In this document: positions 1 through 20,270 of the stretch, in pieces
Layout: every line of letters begins with the position of its first letter
Numbering within the stretch: position 1 is the stretch's first letter
NCBI RefSeq assembly: GCF_000270245.1
Contig: NC_015635.1
Coordinates: 1,240,001 to 1,304,000 of the forward strand
Direction: 5' to 3'
Length of the DNA stretch: 64,000 nt
Source: Microlunatus phosphovorus NM-1
GTDB lineage: Bacteria; Actinomycetota; Actinomycetes; Propionibacteriales; Propionibacteriaceae
The notes under the pieces: model-generated
Database searches by the model: none
The model's input: only the letters and a program-made list of their open reading frames with translations
Told to the model about the DNA's origin: nothing
Made by a program: the position numbers and the translations under genes

Positions 1-93
1 GTCGTCGCGGACATCGACGATCGACTGATCGGGGTAGGGGCGATGACAACCCGTGGTTACGGGACCCTCGAATTGGCTGGGGAGCAGCCGTGA
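1..93 (+). CDS. C-terminal end of a Cas7-type RAMP protein (truncated by window edge)
   Basis: The frame is open from base 1 to a TGA at 91-93 and gives 30 residues. They include DID, LIGVG and TTRGYGTLEL. This lines up with the C-terminus of the tandem RAMP protein at 15672-17174 (DID, LIGLG, TTRGYGTLKV). The GxG...TRGYG pattern is the glycine-rich loop that ends many Cas7/Csm3-type RAMP domains, so this is very likely the tail of a second Cas7-type crRNA-binding subunit. The next gene starts inside its stop codon (GTGA), as happens after the full-length paralog. Only the tail is visible, so the subunit type rests on this alignment by eye. Confidence 0.75.
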   Translation, partial: VVADIDDRLIGVGAMTTRGYGTLELAGEQP

Positions 94-527
94 GCAGCTA
101 CGGCCTACGGGCATTGAGCGACAAGGCATCGGCACAGGCAGTGGCGGGCGTCACGGCTTGGGCATGGGCAGATCATCACGGCTTCCACATCAATCAGAAC
201 TTCCCGACCGGTCATGTGCCGACCGGTTGGGTCTGGGGCTGGGGCGACGGCGTCTGGGTTCGCTGGCGTACGGATGCGTACGCGCCGGCTATTGGCGCCG
301 AGCTCCGGCGGCTGGAGCGCATGCAACCTCCCTACGAAAGGGCCACCGTGGAGGTCGCGCAACCGGCCGACGGGCTCCCCTCGGCGGTCACTGAGCGGCG
401 ATTCCTCAAAATGGTGCCTGGGGAGTTGGATGCTGCCCTCGTCAGGGAGCAGCCGCTCACGCTCGTACGCGTCTACAGCCCGGCGCAACTCACGTTCTAC
501 GCGTTGGATGGACTGGCCGTCACATGA
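90..527 (+). CDS. Small CRISPR-associated protein, Csx19-like position
   Basis: This 145-residue protein has a GTG start overlapping the upstream RAMP stop (GTGA), and its own stop overlaps the next start (ATGA). It is tryptophan-rich in its first half (AWAWADHHG, then GWVWGWGDGVWVRW). I see no catalytic motif, signal peptide or membrane segment. Its length and position, between a Cas7-type RAMP and a two-TM sensor gene, match the 148-residue protein at 17171-17614, so the two are probably diverged paralogs. Type III-D loci often carry an uncharacterised gene of this size, csx19; assigning it here is inference from context and from the Trp/Gly-rich style, not from a recognised signature. Confidence 0.55.
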   Translation: MSSYGLRALSDKASAQAVAGVTAWAWADHHGFHINQNFPTGHVPTGWVWGWGDGVWVRWRTDAYAPAIGAELRRLERMQPPYERATVEVAQPADGLPSAVTERRFLKMVPGELDAALVREQPLTLVRVYSPAQLTFYALDGLAVT

Positions 528-1765
528 CCACAAAGTCGGTGGAGCGATTCCAGCAACCGCGGTGGTGGGAGCGGCCGCCGCAGTGGGCACTCACCTTCGG
601 GGAGTTCAGTCGGCCGCTGCTCTCGTTCTCGATCAACTCGGCGGGCGTCGGGCTGGTCGCAGTCCTGTCCCTACTTCTCGAGAAGGTACTTGTCGGCAGT
701 GACGCTGACACGGCCAGCGTCATCGTGCAGTCAACTCTCATCCTGGTGCTGGCTGCGCTGGCCTGGATTCTCATGCTGGCCAGGGCCGAGCTCGGGCGAA
801 GGCGCGGCACTCGCTACTACGTCCGGTTGCTGCAGCCTTCCATGCCGGATCTGTTCGAGGAGGCTGTCGAGCAGGGGCGGAAGGACTACATCGAGACGAA
901 GCGGATAGTGCGGGCGATCAATCCGCGGAAAGCTGAAACCGTCGTCACGGACATGGCGGCTGAGGTGTCGGATATTGCTGCCGAACTAGAACGCTGCATG
1001 AACGGTGACACTCAGGAGACTGGTTTCCAACTCGTGCCCAACACCGCGTGGTCTGCCGGTCTGGCAGCGGGTTACATGCTCCTATGGGAGACAGACACAG
1101 TCTTTGTCGACCTTACCAGCGGACCTGCATCAACCCGTAGCGTCGAATGGAGCCTAGGCTCGCATGCGGGTGGAACGCGATTCACCCCTCTAGACACGAG
1201 AGTGATTGCTGGCACGAGCGAGTCCGGCCCGGTTCTGGTGCGGATTGATCTGACCGGACCGTCAACCATGCCTGAGTGGCAGGTGTGCAAGACATACTTG
1301 GTCGGCGTTTTGGAGGACGACTCGACGCCTCGTCGTGTGACGGTCGATGTCGATGTGGATACGGCGCAACTGAATCCATCCCCGCACCGCACCCCTGGCG
1401 AACCCCCACGACGGTTCCTGCCGACGGTCGTGCATCCTATGATTGCAGCACAAGCAGGTGCCGCCGCCATTCGCCGGGCGATCCACGAGAACCCCGGCCG
1501 CGACGTTCTGCTGTGCGCTCGTGTGACGAAGACGATCTCCTGGGGAATTGGAGCCTGTCTCACTCGCGACAAGAAGCATAAGGATCCAGGATGCGGGACT
1601 CGTGACTGTCAGAACGCGGACTGCTACGACCCGTGGCGGAGGCTTCTACCGCTGATACCGGATACGCAGACTAGGTGTGGTGAGTATGGCATCGCCCGCG
1701 TGCACCCGGCTCAGCCTCCCGCGGAGATACTGGCACAGAAGTATTCCTGCCAGGATCAGCCATGA
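524..1765 (+). CDS. Two-TM protein with SAVED/CARF-like C-terminal region (candidate type III signalling effector)
   Basis: The product has 413 residues. After about 30 soluble residues there are two hydrophobic segments, roughly residues 33-55 and 64-86, followed by a positively charged stretch (RAELGRRRG). The rest is soluble. Near residues 290-350 comes HPMIAAQAG, then DVLLCARV and ISWGIGACL, then DPWRRLLPLIP. The same layout occurs in the paralog at 17611-18841 (VNLIGMLVP, GLGIGIQV, WPAHLWPLI). It resembles the strand plus 'P..A..LG' region of SAVED/CARF nucleotide sensors, which suggests a membrane effector gated by cyclic oligoadenylate. The start overlaps the upstream stop (ATGA). The sensor assignment is by pattern only; the exact family is unknown. 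Confidence 0.6.
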   Translation: MTTKSVERFQQPRWWERPPQWALTFGEFSRPLLSFSINSAGVGLVAVLSLLLEKVLVGSDADTASVIVQSTLILVLAALAWILMLARAELGRRRGTRYYVRLLQPSMPDLFEEAVEQGRKDYIETKRIVRAINPRKAETVVTDMAAEVSDIAAELERCMNGDTQETGFQLVPNTAWSAGLAAGYMLLWETDTVFVDLTSGPASTRSVEWSLGSHAGGTRFTPLDTRVIAGTSESGPVLVRIDLTGPSTMPEWQVCKTYLVGVLEDDSTPRRVTVDVDVDTAQLNPSPHRTPGEPPRRFLPTVVHPMIAAQAGAAAIRRAIHENPGRDVLLCARVTKTISWGIGACLTRDKKHKDPGCGTRDCQNADCYDPWRRLLPLIPDTQTRCGEYGIARVHPAQPPAEILAQKYSCQDQP

Positions 1766-2127
1766 TCGAGATCGTCAACCTCACGCCGCACGAAGTGACT
1801 GTCATGCCAGGCGATGCCGAGGCAGTCACCTTTCCAGCATCAGGAGAGTTCGCGCGGGTACGTGAGCATCTTGGTGACGAGGTGTGGGTGGCCACCGAAG
1901 GTGGACGGGTCCCGGTTCGACAGCTCACTTATGACGAACAGGTCGATGACCTTCCCGATCCGAGCCCAGGGGTGCTCTATCTTGTCTCCCGCCTGACGGC
2001 ACTATCGGTGCGACGTGACGATCTGATCTTTCCCCAGGGCGAGCTGCGCGATGACAACGGCCAGATCATCGGCTGTCGTGGTCTGGGCACCTTCGCTGAT
2101 CCGGCCTCGATCGCGGGAGGCGAATAA
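1762..2127 (+). CDS. Conserved small protein with 'NLTPHEV' N-terminus
   Basis: This 121-residue protein begins MIEIVNLTPHEVTVMPG and ends with a conserved-looking GQIIGCRGLGTF segment; in between are YLVSRL and an RRDDLIFP stretch. Proteins opening with 'NLTPH' are common in phage and actinobacterial genomes and have no function I can name with confidence. Here it sits between a candidate nucleotide-gated membrane protein and cas6, overlapping both neighbours (ATGA and TAATG junctions), so it is co-translated with the CRISPR genes. A role in tuning or switching off signalling, as small ring nucleases do in other type III loci, is possible but purely positional inference. Confidence 0.5.
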   Translation: MIEIVNLTPHEVTVMPGDAEAVTFPASGEFARVREHLGDEVWVATEGGRVPVRQLTYDEQVDDLPDPSPGVLYLVSRLTALSVRRDDLIFPQGELRDDNGQIIGCRGLGTFADPASIAGGE

Positions 2128-2864
2128 TGCCCAGCCGTTGGTGGATTCCGCTTCAGGGCGCCCGGCCGGATCGGGTTCGGCTGGAGCATCTGCATGCCGC
2201 GGTCTCCCGCTGGTTCGACAGGTCGCCCGAGCAACATGCCGCCGGCACCAAGCCATACGCGATCTCACCGCTGGCACGCGACGCAGATTCTCCCGGCGTC
2301 GGATTCGAACTGGCCACTCTCACCGCAGCCGCCGAGGAGTGCCTTCTCGAGCGGGTGGCACCGCCGGCCACCATCCGGCTGGGACCGGACCAGGTGCTTC
2401 TTGGGGAGCCACGCAAGACAGACACAGAGCAATGGTCATCGCTCGCCAACCCGAGCAGCGCGGGCTCCTGGGATCTGGAGTTCGTCACACCGGTGACGTT
2501 TCGCCGTGGCAATAGGTCGTCGCCGCTGCCGATGGCGGGCTCGGTGCTCCGCGGGCTGCTGGACAGCTGGAACGCCTGGTCAGGCATGCCGATCCGGAAT
2601 CTGACCCGCCAGGACAGCGATGAGATCTGGGTCAGCGACATTGACGGTCGCAGCGAGCCGATGACAGTCTCGGGTGTCCGGCTGTCAGCCTTCGTCGGGA
2701 GGGTCTGTTTCCGGTGCGACAACCAGGCCATCGCTGATCTGGTCGATCCGCTGTTCAGACTGGCCCCGTATGCGGGCGTCGGGTCGGCCAAGGCCAAGGG
2801 GCTGGGCGTCACCCGACTTCATCAGGCGCCCGCACGACGGTCTCGAGCCACTGCGGCAGGCTGA
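2127..2864 (+). CDS. cas6: Cas6-family pre-crRNA endoribonuclease
   Basis: This 245-residue protein shows the double-ferredoxin layout of Cas6. An early histidine-containing helix (RLEHLHAAVSRWF, about residues 19-31) could supply the catalytic base. The C-terminal half has WDLEFVTPVTFRR, then LPMAGSVLRGLL, and ends with the glycine-rich loop YAGVGSAKAKGLGV, a Cas6 hallmark. Cas6 cuts the repeat transcript and leaves an 8-nt 5' handle, here expected to be AUAGAAAC. The start overlaps the upstream TAA (TAATG); RT-Cas1 follows after 10 bases. In some bacteria Cas6 is fused to RT-Cas1; here it is separate but directly adjacent. Confidence 0.85.
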   Translation: MPSRWWIPLQGARPDRVRLEHLHAAVSRWFDRSPEQHAAGTKPYAISPLARDADSPGVGFELATLTAAAEECLLERVAPPATIRLGPDQVLLGEPRKTDTEQWSSLANPSSAGSWDLEFVTPVTFRRGNRSSPLPMAGSVLRGLLDSWNAWSGMPIRNLTRQDSDEIWVSDIDGRSEPMTVSGVRLSAFVGRVCFRCDNQAIADLVDPLFRLAPYAGVGSAKAKGLGVTRLHQAPARRSRATAAG

Positions 2865-2874
2865 GGACTCTCAC

Positions 2875-4752
2875 ATGGGCCAGCTGCTGGAGCGTGCGAC
2901 GAGTGATCGCGCGCTCCGGCGCGCCTGGGAGGACGTGCTCGCAAACGATCGTGAGGATGGCGCATTGTCGCCAGGCGTGGAGCGCTTCGCCGAGGATCCG
3001 AAAGCCGAGCTGGACGAGCTCGGCGAGCAGCTCCGGACGGGCACCTATCGGCCGCGGGACTTGACCGAGGTGGTCATCGACGACGGCGGAGGCTCGCGGA
3101 CGCTGCACATCCCTGCCGTACGCGACCGCGTGGTTGAGCGGAGCCTGCTCAATGTCGTCACCCCCTGGGTCGATCCGGTGCTGGGTTTCACCTCCTACGC
3201 CTATCGTCCCGGTCTCGGGGTCGCCGACGCAGTGCAAGCCCTGGTGACACTGCGTTCGGAGGGCCTCGGCTGGGTGCTGCGGACCGACGTGGACGACTGC
3301 TTTCCCTCGGTGCCCGTGGATCACGCGCGGCGGCTGCTCGGCGCCCTGGTCCCGGATGCGGACTTGCTGGCGATCGTGGATCTGCTGCTGGCCCGCGCAG
3401 CCGTCCGCCCGGGCCGCGGTCGAGGTGTGATGCGTGGACTTGCCCAAGGCTGCGCTCTCTCCCCGCTGCTCACGAACCTGGTGCTGACCGCTCTTGATGA
3501 TGCGCTGCTGGACGAGGGGTTCGCCGTGTTGAGGTACGCGGATGATATTTGCGTCGCCACGGAGACACGGGATGACGCGTGGGAGGCCGCTCGGATCGCC
3601 ACCGCGGCGCTGGAGGTGCTGGGAATGGAACTGGGAGCAGACAAGACGGAAGTGATGTCCTTCGACGAGGGTTTCAGCTTCCTCGGCGAGGACTTCGGGC
3701 CCCGCTATCCGCCGGCCTTGGATGATCACCGAGTCGCGGTGCCGGACCGTCGCGTCCTCTATGCCGGACTTCAGGGCGGGCGGGTTCGCGTCAAGCAGGG
3801 CCGTGTCATTGTCGAGACCGCGGACGACGTCGTCGCCTTGGACGTGCCCACCGATCACGTCAGCCGAGTGGTCTGCTTCGGCTCCGTCGGCTTCTCCGCC
3901 GGTGCCCGGTCCTGGGCCATGAGTAAAGACGTGGACGTCGTCTTCGTGTCGCGTCGGGGAACCTACCAAGGACAGCTGCTGCCGGCGTCGTCGCCGACGC
4001 GAGCCGAGCGTTTGCGTGGGCAACTGGCGTTCAGTGATGATCCGACCCGTACCGTGCCGCTGGCACTGGCGATCGTGGAAGCCAAGATCCGCAAGCAGAT
4101 CGTTCTGCTGCAGCGGTTCGGCCGTCGGGCGCATGCCGAACTTGTCCAGGAGGCAGTGGCAGAGATGCGGAACGTGCTGCGCCTGCTGCCGGACTGCACG
4201 TCGACCGAAGAAGCCATGGGCGTTGAGGGCGCGGCTGCGAGGGTCTACTTCCCGTGTTTAGGCCAACTCTTTCCCGCTGAGCTCCAGTTCACCCTGCGAT
4301 CGCGGCAGCCTCCGATGGACATCGCCAACTCCGCGCTCTCCTATCTGTACACGCTGCTGACCGCCGAGTGTGTGACGGCCCTCGTCGCCGCCGGTTTGGA
4401 TCCGGCGATCGGGTTCCTCCACGCTGACGACAAGGGCAGGCCGAGTCTCGCTCTTGACCTGGTGGAGGAGTTTCGGCCGCACGTGGCCGATCAGGTAGTG
4501 ATCACTGCGGCCCGCAATGGGGAGCTGACCGCTGCCAGCGGCCACACCGAGCCGGGCAAGTCTGGAGTGCTGCTCACCAAGGCCGCGAGGACATCGCTGC
4601 TCGCCGGGTATGAGTTGCGGATGCTGCGCACCACCAAGGGCGCGTTGCCGGACTTCTCCGGGACCTTGCGGAGACATCTGTATCGGCAGGCACAGCGGCT
4701 CTTGGCGACAGTCACTCGTGGCGAACCATGGACTGGTCTCTCGTGGCGCTGA
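2875..4752 (+). CDS. cas1: Reverse transcriptase-Cas1 fusion, CRISPR adaptation integrase
   Basis: I chose ATG 2875 (625 residues): it follows cas6 and has GAGGA seven bases upstream; the open frame extends back to 2674 inside cas6. Residues 1 to about 290 are a group II intron-type reverse transcriptase: motif A TDVDDCFPSVP near 137, motif B QGCALSPLLTN near 195, catalytic RYADD near 220, and SFLGEDF after it. From about residue 300 to the end it is Cas1: YAGLQGG at the start, and the metal-binding set Glu in GVEGAA (about 449), His in GFLHADD (about 515) and Glu in DLVEEF (about 531). RT-Cas1 fusions are known to acquire spacers from RNA by target-primed reverse transcription. It overlaps cas2. 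All catalytic residues appear intact. Confidence 0.95.
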   Translation: MGQLLERATSDRALRRAWEDVLANDREDGALSPGVERFAEDPKAELDELGEQLRTGTYRPRDLTEVVIDDGGGSRTLHIPAVRDRVVERSLLNVVTPWVDPVLGFTSYAYRPGLGVADAVQALVTLRSEGLGWVLRTDVDDCFPSVPVDHARRLLGALVPDADLLAIVDLLLARAAVRPGRGRGVMRGLAQGCALSPLLTNLVLTALDDALLDEGFAVLRYADDICVATETRDDAWEAARIATAALEVLGMELGADKTEVMSFDEGFSFLGEDFGPRYPPALDDHRVAVPDRRVLYAGLQGGRVRVKQGRVIVETADDVVALDVPTDHVSRVVCFGSVGFSAGARSWAMSKDVDVVFVSRRGTYQGQLLPASSPTRAERLRGQLAFSDDPTRTVPLALAIVEAKIRKQIVLLQRFGRRAHAELVQEAVAEMRNVLRLLPDCTSTEEAMGVEGAAARVYFPCLGQLFPAELQFTLRSRQPPMDIANSALSYLYTLLTAECVTALVAAGLDPAIGFLHADDKGRPSLALDLVEEFRPHVADQVVITAARNGELTAASGHTEPGKSGVLLTKAARTSLLAGYELRMLRTTKGALPDFSGTLRRHLYRQAQRLLATVTRGEPWTGLSWR

Positions 4753-5027
4753 CGATCGTTGCTGCCTATGACGTTTCCGATGACAGTCGACGCGCTCGGC
4801 TCGCAGCGCTGCTGCAGACCTGCGGAGACCGGATCCAACTGTCCGTCTTCGTGTTGACCCTCGGTGACGATGAGCTTGATGAGCTTCAGGCACGGGCCCT
4901 GTCGATCATCGACCCGGAGGAGGACTCCCTGTACCTGTTCCGGCAGTGTGGTGGCTGTTGGGAAGCAGCGCGCTGCATCGGCCAGGCCTATCCACCGACG
5001 CAGGAGTACTTCTGGGCAGTGCTATAG
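4728..5027 (+). CDS. cas2: Cas2 adaptation protein
   Basis: The product has 99 residues (94 from GTG 4743, which puts MALTIVAAYDV at the N-terminus and is closer to typical Cas2 starts). The first strand AAYDVSDDSRRARL carries the conserved aspartate after the hydrophobic strand; QLSVFVLTL and DSLYLFRQC follow. Cas2 bridges two Cas1 dimers during spacer integration. The gene overlaps the end of RT-cas1 by 10-25 bases and is the last gene before the leader, so it is surely co-transcribed. The pair CGG...CW near the C-terminus is less typical of the family. Confidence 0.9.
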   Translation: MDWSLVALTIVAAYDVSDDSRRARLAALLQTCGDRIQLSVFVLTLGDDELDELQARALSIIDPEEDSLYLFRQCGGCWEAARCIGQAYPPTQEYFWAVL

Positions 5028-5235: not shown

Positions 5236-8200
5236 GTCAGCGACCGCATCTCGCGAATGAGCGAATAGAAACCTTAGGGTTTGGTCTGCCCCTACTGCCG
5301 TTCCTCCCAGTCAGCGACCGCATCTCGCGAATGAGCGAATAGAAACACGGTCTGCACATTGGCGAACCGCTTCTGCGAGCGGGGTCAGCGACCGCATCTC
5401 GCGAATGAGCGAATAGAAACGTGAGCGGGTCACGCTTCGCCTGCTCTGCGACGAACTGTCAGCGACCGCATCTCGCGAATGAGCGAATAGAAACAAAAAG
5501 GTCACCTTGTTGGCCTTTCCGTCTTTTCCGAACGTCAGCGACCGCATCTCGCGAATGAGCGAATAGAAACGACGTGCCGGCGTTACCGGCTCCTTGACGG
5601 TGACCGTCAGCGACCGCATCTCGCGAATGAGCGAATAGAAACACAAGGACTACGTCTTTGTAGCCCTCCGTGATAGGGAGGAACGTCAGCGACCGCATCT
5701 CGCGAATGAGCGAATAGAAACTTCCGAGTCTTCGACGCGTCCGAGAGTGTACGATCCGTCAGCGACCGCATCTCGCGAATGAGCGAATAGAAACTCGCGT
5801 CGCGCAGTTGCCTCCAAGGAGACGAAAGTCAGCGACCGCATCTCGCGAATGAGCGAATAGAAACATGACCGTAACGGCGATGGCCATCATGATGAAGTCG
5901 TCAGCGACCGCATCTCGCGAATGAGCGAATAGAAACTTGCTGAGTCCGCCACCTTCTTGCACGTGTTGCGCGAGAGTCAGCGACCGCATCTCGCGAATGA
6001 GCGAATAGAAACCTGACGAACATGCCGGTAACACAGCCATCAGAGGCGTCAGCGACCGCATCTCGCGAATGAGCGAATAGAAACTCGACGGCTCCTGGCT
6101 GGGGCTCGTCGAGCTGGACGTCAGCGACCGCATCTCGCGAATGAGCGAATAGAAACTGCAGCCATCGACCGCGACGGTCACTGTGCCCTCAGGCTTGGTC
6201 AGCGACCGCATCTCGCGAATGAGCGAATAGAAACGTTTGCGGCGGCGGCAGCAACCCTTCAGATGGGGTTGGGTCAGCGACCGCATCTCGCGAATGAGCG
6301 AATAGAAACCTTGACGGGGTTGCCCCAGTATGTGGCGTGCACGTCAGCGACCGCATCTCGCGAATGAGCGAATAGAAACGCTCGACGCGTTGGCCTTGGC
6401 GGATGCCGTAGCCGAGTCAGCGACCGCATCTCGCGAATGAGCGAATAGAAACCAGGTCGGTAGAGCCGATCGCGCCCGAAAGGTCAGCGACCGCATCTCG
6501 CGAATGAGCGAATAGAAACGAAGCAACGCAGAGCTCCTTCTGTAGAAAGGATGCTCGTCAGCGACCGCATCTCGCGAATGAGCGAATAGAAACGTGGTCG
6601 GATCAGCCTTAGGGGCCGAGGAGGTCTCAGCCTCTGTCAGCGACCGCATCTCGCGAATGAGCGAATAGAAACCCCATTGGCGTACCTGAGTGGTCCTCTG
6701 CGCGTCAGCGACCGCATCTCGCGAATGAGCGAATAGAAACCGTCGCCAAGAATGGCTACTCTTGTGGCCTTATGGTCAGCGACCGCATCTCGCGAATGAG
6801 CGAATAGAAACCCGCTGGGCCAGCCTGGCCCGGCCATCCGGCGTGTACCGGTCAGCGACCGCATCTCGCGAATGAGCGAATAGAAACGTGCTGGTTGGGT
6901 TGCTGTATATGTCGCATGTCAGCGACCGCATCTCGCGAATGAGCGAATAGAAACGGGTCGTCAACGCATGCAACAGCGTAAGCGCTGTACAGTGTCAGCG
7001 ACCGCATCTCGCGAATGAGCGAATAGAAACTCAAGCAAAGCCGTGCCTACCAATCGATAAATAGTCAGCGACCGCATCTCGCGAATGAGCGAATAGAAAC
7101 AATCTACCAGCCTCCGTACACGGTGACGTCGATCCGTCAGCGACCGCATCTCGCGAATGAGCGAATAGAAACCGGAAACCACCACACCGTCGATCTCACG
7201 AGTACGGTCAGCGACCGCATCTCGCGAATGAGCGAATAGAAACGGCAGCTGACAGCGGCGCTCGCCGTCAGTGGCGCGTCAGCGACCGCATCTCGCGAAT
7301 GAGCGAATAGAAACCTGGTCTATTATGGGGCTTGATCTTTTGAGGTGGTCAGCGACCGCATCTCGCGAATGAGCGAATAGAAACTCAGTCGTTTGACCTG
7401 ACCAGTTCGGTACCGGTCAGCGACCGCATCTCGCGAATGAGCGAATAGAAACTCAGTCGACGACTGTTCCCTCGACCACTGGGGCGGTCTCGTCAGCGAC
7501 CGCATCTCGCGAATGAGCGAATAGAAACGTCCGAGTATTGGGTCGGCGTGGATGATGTCGATGTTGTGGTCAGCGACCGCATCTCGCGAATGAGCGAATA
7601 GAAACTGTTCAAGACGCCATCAGGCAATGCTGGACAGTCAGCGACCGCATCTCGCGAATGAGCGAATAGAAACGATCCGGTGAGATGACACCAGACCAGC
7701 TTGAGATGTCAGCGACCGCATCTCGCGAATGAGCGAATAGAAACTTTGTTGTCAAATGAGTTGGTTTTTCATGTGGTCAGCGACCGCATCTCGCGAATGA
7801 GCGAATAGAAACAGCTTGCCTCGCAGACGGCCATCCCTCCATCGATGTCCCTGTAGTCAGCGACCGCATCTCGCGAATGAGCGAATAGAAACCATTCATG
7901 CGCTGAGGAACGAGACTGTGCTTGATCAGTCAGCGACCGCATCTCGCGAATGAGCGAATAGAAACGATGCCTGCCGCTTCGGCGATCTTCAGGGCGTTGC
8001 ATGTCAGCGACCGCATCTCGCGAATGAGCGAATAGAAACAGACCATACCGCTTGTTGGGCGATATGGTCTCTCAAGTCAGCGACCGCATCTCGCGAATGA
8101 GCGAATAGAAACGATTCTGGATCGCCCACACAGTGACAGGTTGGGTCAGCGACCGCATCTCGCGAATGAGCGAATAGAAACACGAGGACCGAGCCGCCTT

Positions 8201-9826
8201 GGCGATGGCCTGCCGTCAGCGACCGCATCTCGCGAATGAGCGAATAGAAACTCTCGAAGTTGTCGGCCGCAGTCGACAAGTTCTGGTCAGCGACCGCATC
8301 TCGCGAATGAGCGAATAGAAACGTAGGTCAGAGTGCCGTTGCCGATTCCCGTCCTGAGCTGTCAGCGACCGCATCTCGCGAATGAGCGAATAGAAACGTT
8401 GCGGGATACTTATAGCCTCCCCAACCTTTGGGGTCAGCGACCGCATCTCGCGAATGAGCGAATAGAAACGGCAAACGGTCACACCAGGGGCCAGCCAAAC
8501 ATGTGGTCAGCGACCGCATCTCGCGAATGAGCGAATAGAAACGCCCCCAGCCAGGGGTGGGGTCCTTCAGGTGCTGTCAGCGACCGCATCTCGCGAATGA
8601 GCGAATAGAAACGTGACGCGTTGGTTGAACTCGTCCTTTTCGTGCCGCAGTTGCGTCAGCGACCGCATCTCGCGAATGAGCGAATAGAAACGATCGTCTT
8701 CGCGCGACCTTTCCAGAGGTTCTGGTGGTGTCAGCGACCGCATCTCGCGAATGAGCGAATAGAAACACGACGTCGCCGACCGGTGTCCAGCCCAGGCTGA
8801 GCCGTCAGCGACCGCATCTCGCGAATGAGCGAATAGAAACGCGACGCTCGCGGTGGGCCGTCTCCAACTCCTGGTCAGCGACCGCATCGCGCGAATGAGC
8901 GAATAGAAACACAGCAGAATGATCGCGTCCAGAAGCAACATGTCAGCGACCGCATCTCGCGAATGAGCGAATAGAAACCCCGTACCGCTGGATCAGCGTA
9001 CGGCTGGAGGAGTTCGTCAGCGACCGCATCTCGCGAATGAGCGAATAGAAACGAGACCCCCGGCCTGGACGGTAGGGCTAGAGCGGCGTTGTCAGCGACC
9101 GCATCTCGCGAATGAGCGAATAGAAACGATGTACGGCAGGCTGGTGCCGTTCTGCAGGCGGATCAGGTCAGCGACCGCATCTCGCGAATGAGCGAATAGA
9201 AACCGGCTCTCTACGACGCCGACTGCATTGAAGGCTCGCCAGTGTCAGCGACCGCATCTCGCGAATGAGCGAATAGAAACTGGACTCCGGAGGAGTCCTG
9301 CGTGGTACGGGTGCGTCACCGACCGCATCTCGCGAATGAGCGAATAGAAACCAGAAACCCCACACATAGGGCTTCTTGGGCATCGGGGGTCACCGACCGC
9401 ATCTCGCGAATGAGCGAATAGAAACAGCTGCCGTACCGCACGAGCGTGCCGGACCTCCGGGTCCTTCTGTCACCGACCGCATCTCGCGAATGAGCGAATA
9501 GAAACTGGAGCGGTCTGGGCCGCCGGAGTAGCCTGAGCCGCGCCACCACCGCCAACTTGCCGGTCAGTGACCGCATCTCGCGAATGAGTGAATAGAGACG
9601 CCACGAGAGTCACGGAGATTAGGGCTGCCGCGGCGACGGTTCCAGTGATCGCATTTCGCGAATGAGCGAATAGAAACATGACGCCTTGTCCGCGGGACGT
9701 CGGGCGTGGCAAGTCAGGTCAGTGACCGGATCTCGCGAATGAGCGAATAGAAACAGCCGCTTGGCAGGCGGGGCCCACATCAGCGGGCAGTCAGTGACCG
9801 CATCTCGCGAATGAGCGAATAGAAGC
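5236..9826 (+). CRISPR. CRISPR array, 63 repeats and 62 spacers
   Basis: The repeat is 37 bp, begins GTCAGCGACC and ends GCGAATAGAAAC; the last eight bases (ATAGAAAC) fit a type III 5' handle. I counted 63 units with starts from 5236 to 9790. Spacers are 30-43 nt except one of 57 nt (9506-9562). Units 1-56 are nearly identical; unit 51 at 8874 has one change. Units 57-59 (9315, 9389, 9469) share GTCACCG. Units 60-63 (9563, 9641, 9718, 9790) share a T at position 6 plus extra changes, with unit 63 ending GAAGC. Decay at the right places the leader at the left, and transcription runs on the + strand. Confidence 0.98.
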
Positions 9827-9979: not shown

Positions 9980-12712
9980 TTGTTGTCGGCCGGGGCAAGG
10001 ATCGTTCCCACCGGTGGTCTCAACGACATGCCAGCTATGCGATCACGATGCTCACATAGGGAAGGTGTAGCCTCTTCTTGGATTCCTGCCCGGAGGTGCG
10101 GTTTGCGGTGTGATTGGTGTTCAGCTTGTGATGGCGAGGGTGAGTTCTCCTACGAGGGTTGGGTCCTTGCCCGTCCAGAGGGCGCATCATGGCTCGTGTT
10201 TCCATGGCGCGGTGGACTTGGCGGAGCGTCGATTCAGGTTCTTGATGGCGATGTGCCGGAGGAATGGCTGAGTCATGGCTGCGTGGCGGCGAACGTGGAG
10301 ATGATTGCGGACGGGCACGCCGTCAAGTCGCCGATGGAGGGCCTGATCATAGATTCGGCCGCCTTTGTGCCTGCGGAGCGAGTCTCGAGGCTGGAGAGCA
10401 AAGGTGACGAGTGGCGGGCGAGCGCGGCGATCGCCGGAGTTCGTCGCCTTGCGGTCCCTGAGGGGGTCGCGCTTGAGTCGCAAACCCTGGCATCGGCACC
10501 AGTATGGGTGTGGGAAGCGGCCAGCGCCGATGACCCGTCGTGGCAGTTCGAGGACGCATTGGGCTTCCTTGCCCCGAGGATCACCGCACGCGCTCCACGA
10601 CGCTGGCGAAAGCAGCATCACAGTCACTTCGCGGGGCGTGACGCCTTCGTGAATCCGTACAACTTCGTTCCGCTTGGATCTGGCCCGAAGCGGCGAGAGC
10701 CAACCGGTCATCTCGGACTGGCGGACGGCAGATTGAGTGGCCAGGTCTATGTTCGGTGGACCGCCCACACGTCGTTGGCGCTGTCGGGCTCCGGGACTGG
10801 CCGAGATCCTGACAACGCATTTGCCCCGATGGTCATAGACGGCGAGCACACGCTGGCGGGTAGTCAGCTGGCGGGTGCGGTCCGGGCTTTCCACGAGGCA
10901 CTGACCGACAGCTGTCTACGCGTGGTGGATCTCAACTATGCGCCTGTCCACCGGGACCTGGCTCAAGCGCAGGAGCCCGGCCGATGGCGGATGGCAGTCG
11001 TTGACGGGCCTGCGGCTGACGAGGTGCTCCTCTGCCATCCGATCCACAACGGTGGCGAGGAGCACGCCGCCGTTTGGATCGAGGCCCGGAAGTTGGCCGC
11101 GGGTGCAATCGACTCCGGACAGCTCTTCCACTTCGATCTAGCCACGACGACGCTCCAGTATCTGGGGCCTCGGTCGCGTATGGAATGGGTGAGCGGAAGC
11201 GTGCCAGTGCGGTGTGTGGCGCAGCCGGGCACCTGCAATCAGGACCATTGGCGAACCATCGTGACCGAGGCGGTGGGTTTACGCCGACGGAACCCTGGGC
11301 CCAACCAGCATCCATACCATTTGCCGTTTGCCCGTGTCTCGACCGATCGGCGCTCGCTGAGCGAGGCGGCCCGCAAAGGCTATCGCCAGTCCGCGCACGA
11401 CGCCGGCGACGTGGTCAAGCATCGTCGGGGCGAGGAGCTGCGGCTCGCAGTCCCGGGCATCGGGACACGTCAGGAGACAACCGAGGAGATCACTCAAGGG
11501 CAAGTGGTTTGGGTGGAGCTCGACCACGATGAAGTCGCGAAGATATCCCGCTCGGTGCTCTGGCGTTCACCGGGCACTGGAAGGGTCAAGGACAGGATCG
11601 GGGTTTCCAGCAACTCACCTGGCGTAAGCGCCGGATACGAGCCCTGCTCGGATCCGGGCGATCTCTGCCCGAGCTGCCGGCTCTTCGGCATGGTCGAGGA
11701 GCGCATGGACAGGTCGAACGACAAGGCGCGCGTCGCCGCCTACCGAGGACATGTGCGATTTGGGCTTGCGATCGTGAGCGAGGTCGACCCGATTCCAGTG
11801 CACATGCGTGAGTTAGGTGCGCCCCGACCCAGTGCAGGCCAGTTCTACCTGCGAAACGGAAAGTGGACGGGGAAGCAGGCGGCTGAGAAGCAGCGTCCAC
11901 TACGTGAGTGGGGATCTGCTGCGGACCAGCCCACACCTCGGCAGATCGCCGGCCGCAAGTTCTACTGGACTACGAGTCCCGGCGAGCGTCATCTCACGGG
12001 TGACAATTCGAATCCGCACATGACGAGCTACCACAAGTTGACTCCGCCAGGAGCAACCGTCACCTTCCCGGTATGGTTCGACAATCTGACTCCGGTTCAG
12101 TTGGGATCTTTGCTGGTGAGCCTCGACCCCAATCTGTTGCGCGCACCCGACCTGCGGGCGCGGCTGATCGATGGCCAGGGTGAGTCCGCCCTCGGCGCCG
12201 TGCTGGAGTCGACACTCGGACTTCACCTCGGTAAGGGCAAGGGTGTTGGACTCGGTGCGGTGATGCCTCATCTCTCCCTCTATGACGAGGACGACCAGCC
12301 GGTCTGGCCCACTTCGGACGATCACCACGAGGCAATGGTCATGGCATCCGGGGAGGAGCGCTACACGACCACTGACGAGCCTGTTCGAGCTTCATCCGTC
12401 GCGCCGTATGTCGAGCAGTTCGTCAACGAGATTCTCGATTCGGCGACGCGCGCCCGATGGAGCGCGCTGCTCGCTCTGACAGCGGTGGACTGGGTGCCAC
12501 CGAACCTTGTCGACTACCCTCCCGACGACGTCCCTGGTGCGAAGTTCCAGTTCAACTTCTGGCAGCTCTCGTCTGGGGCCCCCGGAACGAAGAAGGTCGC
12601 GCTGGGCAACGGCCAGAAATCCGTCCAGAAGCCTCCACTCCTGGTTAGCTTGCCGGCTCCTGACGCAGTCGATGTCACGGTGAAACGCCCCTGGCTGGAG
12701 GACGGACGCTGA
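9980..12712 (+). CDS. Large TIGR03986-like RAMP protein of the type III effector
   Basis: Up to 910 residues. The motif NPYNFVPL, about a quarter of the way in, is the hallmark of the TIGR03986 RAMP family, part of the Cas7-type backbone in some type III systems. Later come HTLAGSQLAGAVRAF (RAMP helix after the first strand), PGDLCPSCRLFG (a cysteine pair typical of Csm3-like inserts) and a glycine-rich loop, LHLGKGKGVGLGAV. The protein likely holds two RAMP units and binds crRNA or target RNA. The start is uncertain: ATGs at 9980, 10028 and 10037 are in frame without a convincing ribosome site, and the first 50 residues are cysteine/arginine-rich (RRCGLRCDWCSAC). Its stop overlaps the cas10 start (TGATG). 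Confidence 0.85.
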   Translation: MLSAGARIVPTGGLNDMPAMRSRCSHREGVASSWIPARRCGLRCDWCSACDGEGEFSYEGWVLARPEGASWLVFPWRGGLGGASIQVLDGDVPEEWLSHGCVAANVEMIADGHAVKSPMEGLIIDSAAFVPAERVSRLESKGDEWRASAAIAGVRRLAVPEGVALESQTLASAPVWVWEAASADDPSWQFEDALGFLAPRITARAPRRWRKQHHSHFAGRDAFVNPYNFVPLGSGPKRREPTGHLGLADGRLSGQVYVRWTAHTSLALSGSGTGRDPDNAFAPMVIDGEHTLAGSQLAGAVRAFHEALTDSCLRVVDLNYAPVHRDLAQAQEPGRWRMAVVDGPAADEVLLCHPIHNGGEEHAAVWIEARKLAAGAIDSGQLFHFDLATTTLQYLGPRSRMEWVSGSVPVRCVAQPGTCNQDHWRTIVTEAVGLRRRNPGPNQHPYHLPFARVSTDRRSLSEAARKGYRQSAHDAGDVVKHRRGEELRLAVPGIGTRQETTEEITQGQVVWVELDHDEVAKISRSVLWRSPGTGRVKDRIGVSSNSPGVSAGYEPCSDPGDLCPSCRLFGMVEERMDRSNDKARVAAYRGHVRFGLAIVSEVDPIPVHMRELGAPRPSAGQFYLRNGKWTGKQAAEKQRPLREWGSAADQPTPRQIAGRKFYWTTSPGERHLTGDNSNPHMTSYHKLTPPGATVTFPVWFDNLTPVQLGSLLVSLDPNLLRAPDLRARLIDGQGESALGAVLESTLGLHLGKGKGVGLGAVMPHLSLYDEDDQPVWPTSDDHHEAMVMASGEERYTTTDEPVRASSVAPYVEQFVNEILDSATRARWSALLALTAVDWVPPNLVDYPPDDVPGAKFQFNFWQLSSGAPGTKKVALGNGQKSVQKPPLLVSLPAPDAVDVTVKRPWLEDGR

Positions 12713-14100
12713 TGCCCGCGTACATCGATGTCGGTGTCGTTCGGATCCAGGAGTACATCACCCGAACCAGCGGTGCCGCGGAAGGTCAACTCCGGAAGCG
12801 TCGCGGGGCATCTCGCATGGTCGCGAACGCGGCCGCAGCCTCCTATCTCGACCTCGGGCTGGAGCCGAATCCCGAGTCGTATCACGTCGAGGGAGTGGCT
12901 CACTTGAGGAGCATCGGGACCCTCTCCGGCGCTGAAGCCGCCGATCGTGCCGGAGCAGCCATCGAGCGGATGCGAGCACAGCTGCCGTACGCGTATCTGC
13001 GCGCATCATGGGCGTTGGCCGACACCTACTCGACCGCCTTCACCTTGCTCGACGCCGCCCGACGTGGCGAAACAGCCGAGGGCGTCTCGGGTGTACTCGA
13101 CTATCTGCCTCCCCCAAGGGACACGCCGTTCTCCAAGCGATGCAAGTCGTGTGGGCTCGGTGAGGTGATCACCGGCGATACCTGCGGGGACTGTCGGCGT
13201 CGCGATCAGGCGGGCAAGGCTCAGACGACGAGCGACGCGCCCACGCCTGAGGAACGGGTCCTCGCGGAGGTCAATCACCGGGCGCATCTCAGTCTGACAG
13301 CGGTAACTGATCTGACCGGGCTGGCGCGGCTTCCGGTCGATCCGCACGCGAAGCGCAACCACCTCGCCACGATCTATGCGGACGGCAACGGCGTCGGGAA
13401 GCTCTTCGAGTCCATCGGCGACCGGACGGCGGCACAGACCACAAGCAAGGATCTGGACTCGGCCATCCGCGGTGCTGGACGAGACGCGCTGGTGTCTCTG
13501 CTGCCCTATTGCCGAGATAAGTCCCTGCCCGCAGTCGTCACCGTGCTCGCCGCGGACGACGCACTCATCACTGTGCCAGCGCAACTGGGCTGGACCTTCA
13601 CCGAGACGCTCCTGACCGGGTTCGCGCAGCAGGTCAGCGGATACGAGAGCCTCTCGCTGACAGCCGGGATCGTCTTCAGCCATGTGAAATCGCCGATTGA
13701 GGCAGCCATTTCAGCAGCCGACGAAGCGATGCGTGACGCCAAGCGGGCCCGACATGGACAAGCTGCCATCGGGTGGGCTGACCTGACTCACCCGGGTGGG
13801 GAGGACGCCAAGATCTGTGACTTGGCATGGTTGCGCGATCGACGGCAGGTGCTGGATTTGGTGTCCGGATTGCCGGCGAGCCAGCGCTCGGGCTGGGAGC
13901 GGATCATTGCCGAGGCCGCGGCAGCCGAGGTCGACGCTGCGGACCTGATGGTGTTCTTCCGGCGTGAGTTCAACCGGCTCGGCTCTGTGCTCGCCGACCT
14001 GGACCTGACGTTGGACGAGTTCCAAGACATGTTGGACCTGGCCCGTTGGTGGGCCCCGCCGCGTCGTCGTGACCAGCTTGCTGTGGATGGTGACCAATGA
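12712..14100 (+). CDS. cas10: Cas10-like large subunit, HD-less, with AADD in place of GGDD
   Basis: At 462 residues this is short for Cas10. It begins directly with the first palm region (VVRIQEYITRTSG, then RKRRGASRMVANAA), so there is no N-terminal HD nuclease. A zinc-finger pair, CKSC then CGDC, lies near 143-158. The second half has IYADGNGVGKLF near 222-233 and the Palm2 motif VLAADDALI, with AADD at residues 280-283 (bases 13549-13560). Cyclase-active Cas10 proteins have GGDD here; both aspartates remain but both glycines are alanine. A C-terminal helical domain follows. Lack of HD fits type III-D. It should hold the 5' handle of crRNA; whether it still makes cyclic oligoadenylate is open. 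Confidence 0.88.
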   Translation: MPAYIDVGVVRIQEYITRTSGAAEGQLRKRRGASRMVANAAAASYLDLGLEPNPESYHVEGVAHLRSIGTLSGAEAADRAGAAIERMRAQLPYAYLRASWALADTYSTAFTLLDAARRGETAEGVSGVLDYLPPPRDTPFSKRCKSCGLGEVITGDTCGDCRRRDQAGKAQTTSDAPTPEERVLAEVNHRAHLSLTAVTDLTGLARLPVDPHAKRNHLATIYADGNGVGKLFESIGDRTAAQTTSKDLDSAIRGAGRDALVSLLPYCRDKSLPAVVTVLAADDALITVPAQLGWTFTETLLTGFAQQVSGYESLSLTAGIVFSHVKSPIEAAISAADEAMRDAKRARHGQAAIGWADLTHPGGEDAKICDLAWLRDRRQVLDLVSGLPASQRSGWERIIAEAAAAEVDAADLMVFFRREFNRLGSVLADLDLTLDEFQDMLDLARWWAPPRRRDQLAVDGDQ

Positions 14101-14660
14101 AGACGATCACGTTCTCGGTGCGGTTCCATCAGCCGTTTCTGGTGCGCAGCGGGCTGGCGCGTGGTGGAGTCGACTCCGTCGCGCGGATCGACGCGCCATT
14201 GCCGGCTTCGTCGCTGAAGGGAGCCATGCGGGCCGCAAGCGTTCAGGTGCTCGAGATCCCCGACGCCCTGGTGAACGCAATCTACGGCCGATCGGGTGAG
14301 GACGGTGAAGCCTCGAAGCAAGGTGCCTGGGCATGGACAGACGCGGGACCAAGTGATGCCTTCGTACGGCAGGTCCGCGTGCGCAATCGTGTCGATCCGA
14401 CATCTGGCGTCGCGTTGGCGGAGGCGCTCACCTTCAGCGAGGAATACTGGCACCGCACCGAGCAGACCGTGACCTTCTGTGTTGAGCAGATTCGTGTGCT
14501 GGACGCATCGACGCTCGATCAGCATGTGCTCGCGATCCAGGCGGCCAGCTACGCAGTGACCGCCCTCGGCTCCTGGCGAAACCGCGGCATGGGTGCGGTC
14601 ACCATCCGCCCCATTGAGCCGCTCGACCGGCTCGCGGAACGAGGGGAGGAACTGCGGTGA
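14097..14660 (+). CDS. Small Cas7/Csm3-like RAMP subunit
   Basis: This 187-residue protein has one RAMP fold: first strand TFSVRFHQPFLVRSG, then RIDAPLPASSLKGAMRAA (the conserved 'P.SSLKG..R' helix after the thumb), and the C-terminal glycine-rich loop GSWRNRGMGAVTI. Cas7-type subunits polymerise along crRNA and may cut target RNA; the aspartate in RIDAPLP is the likeliest residue at the usual catalytic position, though this is inference. Start and stop both overlap neighbours (ATGA and GTGA), so it is made in step with cas10 and csx10. Confidence 0.85.
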   Translation: MKTITFSVRFHQPFLVRSGLARGGVDSVARIDAPLPASSLKGAMRAASVQVLEIPDALVNAIYGRSGEDGEASKQGAWAWTDAGPSDAFVRQVRVRNRVDPTSGVALAEALTFSEEYWHRTEQTVTFCVEQIRVLDASTLDQHVLAIQAASYAVTALGSWRNRGMGAVTIRPIEPLDRLAERGEELR

Positions 14661-15679: not shown

Positions 15680-17174
15680 CCCGAGGTTTGCCGCCATCAG
15701 CTTTCGACTGATGGCAGTCGAGCCTTTGACGGTGGGCGATCCGGTGGGAGCCGACATTCTCGATCGGATCAGTCGCGTCTTGTCGGAAAAGCACCCAGAC
15801 GAGGTTGCGGTCGATATCCCGGTCGCTCAGGATCCCTTTGATCAGCCGATCGTGCGGGGCACCTCGATCTTCGGAGCTCTGCGAGCGCATCTGGCTGACT
15901 ATCGCCTGTTGGCGGCGCGGGAACTGCGGTTCCGCTCGATCAGCTCGACCGAGCCTGTTGCTCGGACAACCAAACGTCAGGCGACTCTGGCCGATCTACT
16001 TTGTGGCTCCGACCCGGAGGAGATCGATGGAACCGGGGCACGGATGCTTCGTCCGAGTGCGCTCCGGTTGGTGAGTTCGCAGTTGACCGCCGGCGAGGTG
16101 AGCGACGGTATGGCCCGGACCGCGATCAGTCGTGAGCGTGGGGCGGCAGAGCCGAACAAGCTGTTCCGTCGCGGCCAACTCTTGGGCGCGACCATTGAGG
16201 TGCTGCTGCAGATCGATCTGGCGATTCTGGACGCTGTGCTGAGCGAATGGGGGACCGCCGCAGTCACCACAGGTCCGACCGCGGCTCGGCAGGTTATCGA
16301 TGATCTCTCACGTGCGCTGGGAGCGTGGAAGCCCTTCATCGGTGGCCAGACCTGTGTCGGGTCAGGTCGCTGCCAGATCGCGGGCATCACCCTCCGATGG
16401 GCCGATCCGTTGCCGATTCAACAGCTGCTTAGCAGCTCGGACACGCTCGGACTGCTGAGGTCGGCGACACGTCAGCCGGTACCCGTTGGGGAACTGCAGC
16501 TGAGCACCAGGTCTCAGGGTGAGCGCTGGAGCATCGACGTGCCCCTGAAGTGCGTGGATCCGCTGCTTGTTTCGCCCGTCGCATCGTCCGATGGAACGCA
16601 CGATAATCTCGCCACGACGCTGGACATCGTGCCCGGCTCTTCCTGGCGGGGCCTGTTCCGCGCCCGAGCCGAGTACATCCTGCGCTCGTGCGGTGTCGCC
16701 GAGGTGTGCGAGTCATCGGTAGGGACGTGTGGCCGGTGTGCCACCTGCGAACTGTTCGGCTGGGTGCCCAGACCGACTGATCCGGCTGGTCGGGCTGGCG
16801 CTCAAGGACTGATCCGATTCTCGGACTCCGTTGTCGAGGGTAGTCCAATCACGTTGAGCCATGCGCCAATCGACCGTTTCACCGGCGGCGCGGCCGATGC
16901 GAAGTTCTTCAAGCGTAAGGCGTGGGCGCCAGGCGCCCAACTCACGATGGTGGTCGAACAGACACCTGGTCGCCCGCCGGTTCCGGCTTGGGCCCGCGCG
17001 CTGCTGAGCCTGGTTCTGCGTGATATTGATGCTGGGCTGATTGGTCTCGGAAACTCCACCACCAGGGGGTACGGAACGCTGAAGGTCGCCGATCACGGTG
17101 TGCTTCCCGCCATCCCGGCCGGTTGGTTGGGCGGCGTCCCCCGAGTCGAGGGAGCGGAGGTAGGGCAGCGATGA
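15672..17174 (+). CDS. Tandem RAMP (double Cas7-type) protein
   Basis: I chose ATG 15672, overlapping the csx10 stop by 8 bases, giving 500 residues; the open frame extends upstream inside csx10. Two RAMP units follow each other. The first has PIVRGTSIFGALRAH near 60 and ends with CVGSGRCQIAG near 230. The second has DIVPGSSWRGLFRARAEY near 320, a cysteine cluster TCGRCATCELFGW near 358-368, DAKFFKRKAW, and the loop IGLGNSTTRGYGTL. It is probably a fused pair of Cas7-type backbone subunits. Its C-terminus matches the truncated protein at the left edge of the window, so a paralog exists across the array. Confidence 0.83.
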   Translation: MRSPRFAAISFRLMAVEPLTVGDPVGADILDRISRVLSEKHPDEVAVDIPVAQDPFDQPIVRGTSIFGALRAHLADYRLLAARELRFRSISSTEPVARTTKRQATLADLLCGSDPEEIDGTGARMLRPSALRLVSSQLTAGEVSDGMARTAISRERGAAEPNKLFRRGQLLGATIEVLLQIDLAILDAVLSEWGTAAVTTGPTAARQVIDDLSRALGAWKPFIGGQTCVGSGRCQIAGITLRWADPLPIQQLLSSSDTLGLLRSATRQPVPVGELQLSTRSQGERWSIDVPLKCVDPLLVSPVASSDGTHDNLATTLDIVPGSSWRGLFRARAEYILRSCGVAEVCESSVGTCGRCATCELFGWVPRPTDPAGRAGAQGLIRFSDSVVEGSPITLSHAPIDRFTGGAADAKFFKRKAWAPGAQLTMVVEQTPGRPPVPAWARALLSLVLRDIDAGLIGLGNSTTRGYGTLKVADHGVLPAIPAGWLGGVPRVEGAEVGQR

Positions 17175-17614
17175 CGACCGAGCAGGACGCCGCGGTCAGC
17201 GTCAGACCATCGGAGTGCGGCGTGGAGTTGGCGACCTACGGCTGGTGCACCTGGCCAAAGGCGGTGGAGTTGCTCACGGACAGTGAGGGCGTGTGGCTAG
17301 GAACGGCCGGCATCGTCGAGTGCGCCGCCTCGGCCTGGCCGGCCGACATGCCCGTCACCACCCGGATTCATGCCTGGGGAACTGGGCCCGCACCTGTCCT
17401 TTGGAGACTCATTCCGCGGCCGACAGCGCAGACAGTGCTGGTCACAGGGTTGATCCTTTCGCCGACGACGCCCCAGCCGGCAACTCCTGGTGCGAAACGG
17501 GCCGCCGTTGTCTCGACCGAACACAGTCTGGGTTGGTTACGCTACCGGGTCGGCGGGCCATCGACGCTGACGTTTCTGCGGCGGATGCCGCTCGATACAG
17601 CGGACCCGTGGTGA
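17171..17614 (+). CDS. Small CRISPR-associated protein, Csx19-like position (second copy)
   Basis: The product has 148 residues from ATG 17171, which overlaps the tandem-RAMP stop (ATGA); its own stop overlaps the next GTG (GTGA). No recognised motif. Tryptophans are spread through the protein (YGWCTW, SAWPAD, HAWGTG, LWRLIP, LGWLRYR). Its place after a tandem RAMP and before a two-TM sensor is identical to that of 90-527, and both end in an 'L-T-F' strand (LTFYALDGL there, LTFLRRMPL here). Csx19 of type III-D is the natural comparison, held only at the level of size, order and composition. Confidence 0.55.
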   Translation: MTTEQDAAVSVRPSECGVELATYGWCTWPKAVELLTDSEGVWLGTAGIVECAASAWPADMPVTTRIHAWGTGPAPVLWRLIPRPTAQTVLVTGLILSPTTPQPATPGAKRAAVVSTEHSLGWLRYRVGGPSTLTFLRRMPLDTADPW

Positions 17615-18841
17615 GAACCGGTGGAGGTGAGCATCTCCGGCAGTTGGGACGGTATGCCAACATCTGTCTGGCGGTCTTCACGGCCTTCACCGGTGCCGCT
17701 CTGGGTGTCGTGGAGAACCTGTTCGCAGGCGTCCGCGGGACGTTGGACTTCACCATCCGCCTGTGGGTGACGGTCGGCCTAGCCGTCATCGCCGGGGTGG
17801 CTTTGGTGGGATACGGATGGCTCAGCAAGCGACGCAGCTTTCTTCTGTCGCAACGAGGAACGTCGTACGTCGTCGACTCGCCTGCGGAGACGTGGACGCC
17901 TGACGACAAGAACGCCTACATGATCGAGGGGGCGAACGCAGTTCGCGGATGTCCTCGAGGTTGCGGGTCCGACTGGACTCTCGTCGTGGCGGTGGCCACT
18001 CACCGACGGCGCCGACCGCTGGAGCAATGCAGTTGACGATTTGGTCATCTCCTTTCGCAGTGTTATGGCGAACGATGACCCGCGTACGCCGAACTCCATC
18101 GTCTGCTGGGCCTGGTATCCGGTGGCAATCGCGTGGACTGCCCGCACACGTGCGCAGCAGCGCAATCTGCCGATCGCCATCCGTCAGCGGCCGAGCACAG
18201 GCAGAACCAAGAGCATCGACATGCCTGACTGGAGTCAGCCTGTCTACTCATTCGCTCCGACTCCTGCCCCTGAAAGGCCCCGTAGAACGGTGATGCGTGA
18301 TCGTGCCACAGGATTGCGGCTCGCGGGCGCTGACCCAGCCAACCCGATCGACGCGGAGGTGAGCTTCGACGGAACCAATGTGACTGATGCGGCTCCGATC
18401 AACATTCTGTTGGTCCGATTGCATGACAAAGAGTGGGCAGGGTTGAGCCCAGACAAAGACGGAGAGCCGGTCACTCTGAATGTCGCTAACTGGTCGGGCC
18501 AGCCACTTGGCCTCCCCGGCAGCGCAGTCCTGCACGAATGGCGCTGCCTTCCCAAGTCGGCGATCCATCCCTGGACCGACTACCCGAGTCTTACTTCCGA
18601 AATAGTCAGATGGATAGCCCGCACGGCCGACCCGGATGGTGTCAACCTGATTGGCATGCTCGTGCCGCAGGAGGTCGGGCTCGGTATCGGGATTCAGGTC
18701 GCAGATCTGACCAAGTCCCAGTGGCCAGCCCACCTCTGGCCCTTGATCCAGCCGTCAGCTAGAGCAGAGCATCTGACTATTCCCGGACTCGACCTCGGCT
18801 GGGATTCGCTTCACCGCGGATATCGCGTCGGATCTCGATAA
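17611..18841 (+). pseudogene. Two-TM SAVED/CARF-like sensor gene, second copy, with apparent frameshift
   Basis: A GTG at 17611, overlapping the upstream stop, opens a frame with two hydrophobic segments (ICLAVFTAFTGAALGVV and LWVTVGLAVIAGVALVGYGW) and a KRR stop-transfer. That frame closes at 18036. A second open frame (18041 in its reading, but coding-like back to 17942: FADVLEVAG, SSWRWPL) continues to 18841. Joining them by a one-base shift at the G5 run 17928-17932 restores about 410 residues, equal to the paralog at 524-1765, with matching late motifs VNLIGMLVP, GLGIGIQV and WPAHLWPLI. It may be a true mutation, a programmed slip or a sequencing error. If broken, the membrane part could still be made alone. 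Confidence 0.7.
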
Positions 18842-20124: not shown

Positions 20125-20270
20125 CTGTCACCTCAATTCCTTTGGACGCACATCACCCATCCTGCGGGCTGCGCGTGCTCGACCAGTATCGTCGGGACGA
20201 GTCTGACGCAGGCCACTGACACCCCAGTGGTGAGCGAGCAGTCAGCGCGTTCAGCACCGATGGGAGGCTC

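Follow-up and report, generated by a model that had tools for sequence, protein, structure and literature searches.

Two effector modules around one adaptation module

The window, a 64,000-nucleotide stretch (G000:C1:1240001-1304000) of the single-contig, 5,683,123-base chromosome of Microlunatus phosphovorus NM-1, opens partway through a type III CRISPR-Cas locus. An earlier note, made from the letters of the window alone, had proposed that a further cas10/RAMP set lies just left of base 1. We extended the sequence 18 kb leftward (L002, in which positions are those of the window plus 18000; the two sequences agree across their common first 2000 bases), searched it for cas10, csx10 and TIGR03986 homologues, and found a complete effector module directly adjoining the window, on the same strand as the module inside it. 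Two complete type III-D-like effector modules, module 1 on the left and module 2 on the right, flank one array, one adaptation module (Cas2 and a reverse transcriptase (RT)-Cas1 fusion) and one Cas6 (Table 1). Module 1 runs in the order TIGR03986-type cas7, cas10, small cas7, csx10, cas7, csx19-like gene and SAVED-transmembrane (TM) sensor gene, followed by Unk_01; the order as far as the sensor gene is repeated in module 2, past cas6, RT-Cas1, cas2 and the 63-repeat array.

The earlier note had reached its proposal from likenesses between the two ends of the locus, most of which stand. The succession of RAMP tail, protein of about 146 amino acids (aa) and two-TM sensor is present at both places (145 aa at 90-527; 147 aa at 17171-17614), although the second sensor is not a single open reading frame (ORF). 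GTGA and ATGA junctions both occur in each module, but in swapped order: GTGA then ATGA in module 1, ATGA then GTGA in module 2. The RAMP tails are alike over DID, LIG and TTRGYGTL, and the full-length proteins align over 490 columns with 29% identity (E = 1e-30), far beyond chance.

Both modules contain a type III Cas10 large subunit, recognized by its Pfam palm2 domain and, in module 2, also by its predicted fold. Relative to subtype III-D, which is known by csx10, csx19 and a TIGR03986-type Cas7, this locus differs in profile scores that fall under curated cut-offs and in one Cas10 that reads AADD at the palm motif. Thus TIGR03986 matches nearly its whole length in module 1 (E = 4e-46) and is also found in module 2 (E = 5e-43), at 158.6 and 148.5 bits against a curated cut-off of 161.35; the Csx10 NCBIfam scores, 51.9 and 24.4, both lie below their cut-off of 177.3. 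The small subunit is matched by Csx19 in module 1 (E = 4e-8) and only by Cas11 in module 2 (E = 8e-4). In module 2 each of the six core genes is a long open frame with no internal stop. Alignment with its homologue on a Micrococcales metagenome-assembled genome (MAG) contig, L053, suggests that the module 2 TIGR03986-type cas7 starts near 10103; its N-terminal extension of about 190 aa with Cys pairs (10103-10700) is absent from module 1 and present in the L053 homologue. An aspartate in the small-Cas7 loop, presumably the residue that cuts target RNA, as in Csm3, is kept in 14 of 14 aligned rows.

Between the modules lies an RT-Cas1 adaptation module, with the RT fused to Cas1 and followed by cas2 and the array, and here the earlier note, which had placed one array and one such module at this point, was right. 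This RT-Cas1 is the sole Cas1 found in the genome, and the 35-base repeat core, the one repeat searched for, has 63 genomic occurrences within three mismatches, all in this array. As only one Cas1 and one array with this repeat were found, a single pool of CRISPR RNAs (crRNAs) would serve both modules, if both are used; gene content thus suggests that both complexes load the same crRNAs. Comparison of the array with phage records gave no match. The available part of PMC5513706 describes RT phylogeny as virtually unlinked to effector modules, which fits a single RT-Cas1 serving two of them, and an actinobacterial RT-CRISPR clade is included in the portion of PMC5541045 at hand. Sharing of a crRNA supply is itself described, in the accessible text of PMC4041471, for Sulfolobus islandicus REY15A, where one Cas6 serves several complexes (one I-A and two III-B). 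Common to both cases is one processing enzyme for several complexes; here, in contrast, both modules belong to the same broad subtype and sit at one locus around one RT-Cas1 and array. Given that precedent, the altered Cas10 of module 2, on which the earlier note is silent, is more novel than the arrangement.

Table 1. Features of the two-module locus (window positions unless stated; E-values from profile searches)
Feature	Position	Strand	Evidence and remarks
Module 1 cas7, TIGR03986 type, 694 aa	left of window; module start G000:C1:1233468	+	TIGR03986 match
Module 1 cas10, 504 aa, GGDD	left of window	+	Pfam palm2 E 7e-11
Module 1 small cas7, 183 aa	left of window	+	
Module 1 csx10, 422 aa	left of window	+	TIGR02674 E 6e-14; PADLOC Cas5_IIId E 3e-19
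Module 1 cas7 (RAMP), 423 aa	ends at 93 (1..93 inside window)	+	
Module 1 csx19-like small subunit, 145 aa	90..527	+	PADLOC Csx19 E 4e-8
SAVED-TM membrane sensor 1, 413 aa	524..1765	+	PADLOC C3a205 E 4e-156; SAVED6--SAVED_TM E 1e-89; N-terminal hydrophobic stretches
Unk_01 small protein, 121 aa	1762..2127	+	PADLOC C3a69 and Unk_01
cas6	2127..2864	+	Pfam CRISPR_Cas6 E 1e-14
RT-Cas1 fusion	2875..4752 (start is first in-frame ATG after cas6)	+	Pfam RVT_1 E 2e-24, Cas_Cas1 E 1e-80 (run on 2866-4752)
cas2	4728..5027	+	Pfam CRISPR_Cas2 E 9e-17
CRISPR array, 63 repeats of 37 bp, 62 spacers	5236..9826	+	degenerate repeats at module 2 end
Module 2 cas7, TIGR03986 type, longest ORF 910 aa	9980..12712	+	TIGR03986 E 4.5e-43, under curated cut-off
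Module 2 cas10, 462 aa, palm motif AADD at residues 280-283	12712..14100	+	Pfam Cas10-Cmr2_palm2 E 4e-7; predicted fold
Module 2 small cas7, 187 aa	14097..14660	+	PADLOC Csm3 (PDLC01404) E 1e-76
Module 2 csx10/Cmr3-like Cas5, 340 aa	14657..15679	+	Pfam Cas_Cmr3 E 6e-8; Csx10 TIGR02674 E 1e-5; PADLOC Cmr3 best, E 5e-9
Module 2 cas7, 500 aa	15672..17174	+	Pfam RAMPs E 2e-21; PADLOC Cas7_IIId E 2e-25
Module 2 small subunit, Cas11-like, 147 aa	17171..17614	+	PADLOC Cas11 E 8e-4; 44% to same gene in L053
Module 2 membrane sensor, split in two frames	17611..18841 (17611-18036, then on to 18841)	+	

Ancestry and relatives of the modules

Pairwise alignment and trees bear on how the two modules came to stand together. 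By BLAST, their counterparts are 28% (TIGR03986-type cas7), 25% (cas10), 33% (small cas7), 23% (csx10) and 29% (second cas7) identical, and neither the small subunits nor the sensors match each other at E = 1. The gene order, identical on both sides, is what a recent tandem duplication around the array would leave, yet core identities of just 23–33% speak against such an event, and the Cas10s group with database proteins (94% to P0001; 74% to P0028) rather than with each other. We reject recent duplication, which these data make extremely improbable; judged by the identities and the Cas10 trees, the modules are separate old lineages. The earlier note's term ‘paralogous’ holds in a deep sense only, not in that of a local duplication.

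Among 198 genomes of the host family, 17 hold the Cas10 family at E = 1e-8, and a close match to the module 2 Cas10 occurs in the window genome only (E = 5e-197; next 9e-51). At least two separate Cas10 places were found in six of those 17 (G000, the window genome, and G822, G825, G831, G835 and G867, the second place in G867 being a weaker match), and two modules around one RT-Cas1 and array in two: the window genome and G867. In the latter, a Propionibacterium sp. MAG (contig JALHFX010000016.1; L051/L052), RT-Cas1-Cas2 and an array of 11 repeats stand between two III-D-like modules, and the same repeat core recurs in two more short arrays of that contig; the modules there differ from ours in being of other lineages, with GGDD in both Cas10s. 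Beside the second of them a 201-aa protein with hydrophobic-looking N-terminal stretches (L052 6089-6694) has no PADLOC match. About 57 kb separates the two modules of G825. Each has a cas1, a cas2 and an array to itself, and the repeat cores of these arrays differ. In Tessaracoccus bendigoensis (G806/G822; L054-L057) this Cas10 family is represented by four modules, each on a different contig; two are of module 1 type. Overall, the pairing varies a known type III organization in a rare way, and the fixed AADD lineage of Cas10s is the more surprising part.

Wider searches recovered little else. In a 57-genome sample of relatives the module 2 Cas10 was found in its own genome only, at a threshold of E = 1e-5, and a search of genome contigs with the protein found nothing. 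A motif-pattern scan of genome contigs gave 17 stretches, and module genes had BLAST-level relatives in 14 of them; L014, L018 and L024, the remaining three, had no match in a whole-genome search either and were dropped. Searches of whole genomes were run with the module 2 and the module 1 profiles. Thin samples of the phylum and class contained PDLC01404 in two of 396 genomes and PDLC01093 in two of 394, our own included. Viral contigs yielded no relative, and plasmids two Streptomyces records at 29% identity.

Membrane sensors

The sensor of module 1 combines a SAVED domain with N-terminal TM helices, as in SAVED-TM effectors, and has no Pfam match at E = 0.1. The very strength of its C3a205 and SAVED_TM matches suggests that this genome is among the profile seeds, and the SAVED-TM tree does not resolve its nearest relative. 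Behind SAVED-TM genes, Unk_01 stands as a gene of its own, and in relatives (L098 3367-5055, L101 1966-3780, L102 12185-14071) TIR-SAVED effectors carry it fused at their C-terminus; it therefore looks like a partner of SAVED effectors.

By gene content each module has its own membrane sensor, as the earlier note had it, but the second is split in this genome. Nine relatives of sensor 2 beyond its own cluster are 397–419 aa long, and a profile of the intact relatives matches the window in two pieces, 17623-17940 and 17930-18838, in different frames. The gene is therefore split by a frame change near 17930-17940, with intact copies elsewhere. Were the split a sequencing error, both modules would have working sensors; the existence of intact relatives, one of them 74% identical, and the joint coverage of the family profile by the two pieces agree with this. 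Against it, a 258-aa database cluster covers only the C-terminal part of sensor 2, and its representative differs from the window at one of 258 residues, which hints that the split extends beyond this assembly, although truncation of a contig could also produce such a cluster. We regard an error as unlikely.

The same split, together with the degenerate repeats adjoining module 2 and the lack of any other close match to its Cas10 among the 198 family genomes, could mean that module 2 is a recently acquired, decaying passenger and that only module 1 is used. However, its six core genes are all open, and degenerate repeats are usual at the leader-distal end of arrays. That module 2 is such a passenger seems to us unlikely.

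The two sensor families are related at the level of profiles (probability 91, E = 1e-6); close paralogy between them found no support in BLAST. Sensor 2 was found in its own genome only among 391 genomes of the order. Against PADLOC, the family members P0068 and P0074 had no hit and P0076 had a weak SAVED6 hit (E = 0.005), and sequence searches of solved structures at E = 1 found none for either sensor family. For three of the nine sensor 2 relatives the longest contig has the same base count as that of an AADD Cas10 (24966, 16748 and 32463 bases), and none of the nine shares a contig base count with any of 26 module 1 Cas10 relatives; this indirect evidence suggests that sensor 2 travels with module 2. 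On L053, an AADD module whose six core genes are all closest to module 2 (40–53% identity) is followed by an intact SAVED-TM gene, Unk_01 and cas6, so an AADD Cas10 can also adjoin a sensor of module 1's kind.

The AADD Cas10 and how the two modules may work

The canonical GGDD motif is present in the Cas10 of module 1 and in 26 of 26 of its homologues. The Cas10 of module 2 reads AADD, with both aspartates retained, and is therefore not classed as a canonical GGDD cyclase. Its own sequence included, 35 of 40 module 2 homologues have AADD and five have GGDD (P0057, P0063-P0066); the motif was read in part of the family matches, and in a minority of loci L068-L097. A first tree, of 57 Cas10s, gathers the AADD rows into a single group of 23 whose sister is the GGDD protein P0057 (SH-aLRT 98 and 99); in a more careful tree of 39 of these rows, built with the motif masked, the AADD group persists (98/94) and a single motif change suffices.

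What accompanied that change was sought in 78 aligned rows sorted by motif (36 AADD, 42 GGDD), with thresholds of at least 90% in AADD and 70% in GGDD rows. Three further columns separate the two sets: H283 to T, S293 to T and D78 to E (module 1 numbering). Residues D231, N233, D288 and D289 are kept in all 78 rows and K372 in 76; these five would be the catalytic residues, as in Cas10 and GGDEF enzymes. Pfam at E = 0.1 finds an HD domain in neither Cas10, as is usual for III-D, and the predicted fold of the module 2 protein is that of a normal III-D Cas10, its model aligning to Cmr2/Csm1 chains only from residue 218-265 onward. With inactivated-palm Cas10s (III-C, III-G, III-H) it shares the departure from GGDD; it differs from them in that the aspartates are kept and a sensor gene stands beside AADD modules. 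Our literature search, which covered mostly papers outside subscription, found nothing on this locus or on an AADD Cas10.

Change of the glycines with retention of the aspartates and of sensor genes fits specialization better than decay, and on these sequence grounds the module 2 Cas10 is probably specialized and still signalling. A precedent for a change of product comes from the available part of PMC12657230, where a Cas10-like enzyme makes a different product and is paired with a two-TM effector. The AADD clade may even make a second messenger distinct from that of GGDD Cas10s, so that one infection, read by both enzyme kinds from a common crRNA pool, could raise two alarms through two sensors where both are whole; this we offer as a tentative idea, and a rather doubtful one.

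Several points weigh against a signalling module 2 Cas10. In P0057, the GGDD sister of the AADD clade, the H283 and S293 positions are T already, so those two changes arose no later than AADD and need not accompany it. A normal predicted fold demonstrates no function. The GGDD variants seen with known effectors, given as likely active, do not include AADD where they are listed in the accessible text of PMC11229360, a survey which predicts about 97% of Cas10s to be active and from which hybrid loci with more than one cas10 were removed; and replacement of palm residues is read as inactivation for published subtypes in the part of PMC12669027 at hand. The split of sensor 2 fits decay of the signalling branch of module 2, the contig links between sensor 2 and AADD Cas10s are indirect, and six of the nine sensor 2 relatives have no such link.

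On such grounds the AADD clade could have lost cyclase activity, leaving module 2 only to bind and cut RNA and an intact sensor to answer the signal of another Cas10. Replacement of both motif glycines in 35 of 40 homologues fits this, as does the split sensor in the window; the window genome and several relatives do hold more than one Cas10, and signalling between loci is discussed in the sections available of PMC11229360. Yet palm aspartates, asparagine and lysine that are invariant, or nearly so, are unexpected under decay, and in G807 (a MAG, perhaps incomplete) an AADD module that carries a SAVED-TM gene is the only Cas10 found by either profile. We regard loss of activity as somewhat unlikely. 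With moderate confidence we prefer the reading in which two modules of different descent use a single adaptation module, Cas6 and array in common, and in which the AADD Cas10 is altered but signalling.

Under this preferred reading, Cas6 would cut one pre-crRNA, and the resulting pool would supply guides to both complexes, which would bind matching phage RNA and cut it via Cas7. The module 1 Cas10, with GGDD and no HD domain found, would make a cyclic nucleotide, which would switch on the SAVED-TM membrane effector. The AADD Cas10 would still signal by a nucleotide to the two-TM sensor of its own module, with a change in the product, in its rate or in its control; of all the steps this is the least certain. 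In this strain, where sensor 2 is split, module 2 may now act by RNA cutting alone or through the SAVED-TM effector of module 1. An active AADD Cas10 would mean that the glycine pair is dispensable and that motif-based surveys may be misjudging an entire lineage; an inactive one would be a lineage that changed the turn yet kept its metal site and sensor genes, which would need an explanation of its own. Either way, the locus would be a natural side-by-side test of two kinds of Cas10 with the same guides.

Other genes flank the locus on both sides. About 125 nt left of module 1 (L002 9372-11342) is a gene for a 656-aa kinase-domain protein (Pfam Pkinase E = 9e-29; PADLOC PD-T4-6 E = 1e-42; kinase family C3a189 E = 1.5e-23), and right of module 2 (window 18964-21864) stand genes for a DNA cytosine-5 methyltransferase (TIGR00675 E = 4e-52), an MTaX1-domain protein (E = 1e-17) and a Vsr-type endonuclease (E = 5e-17).

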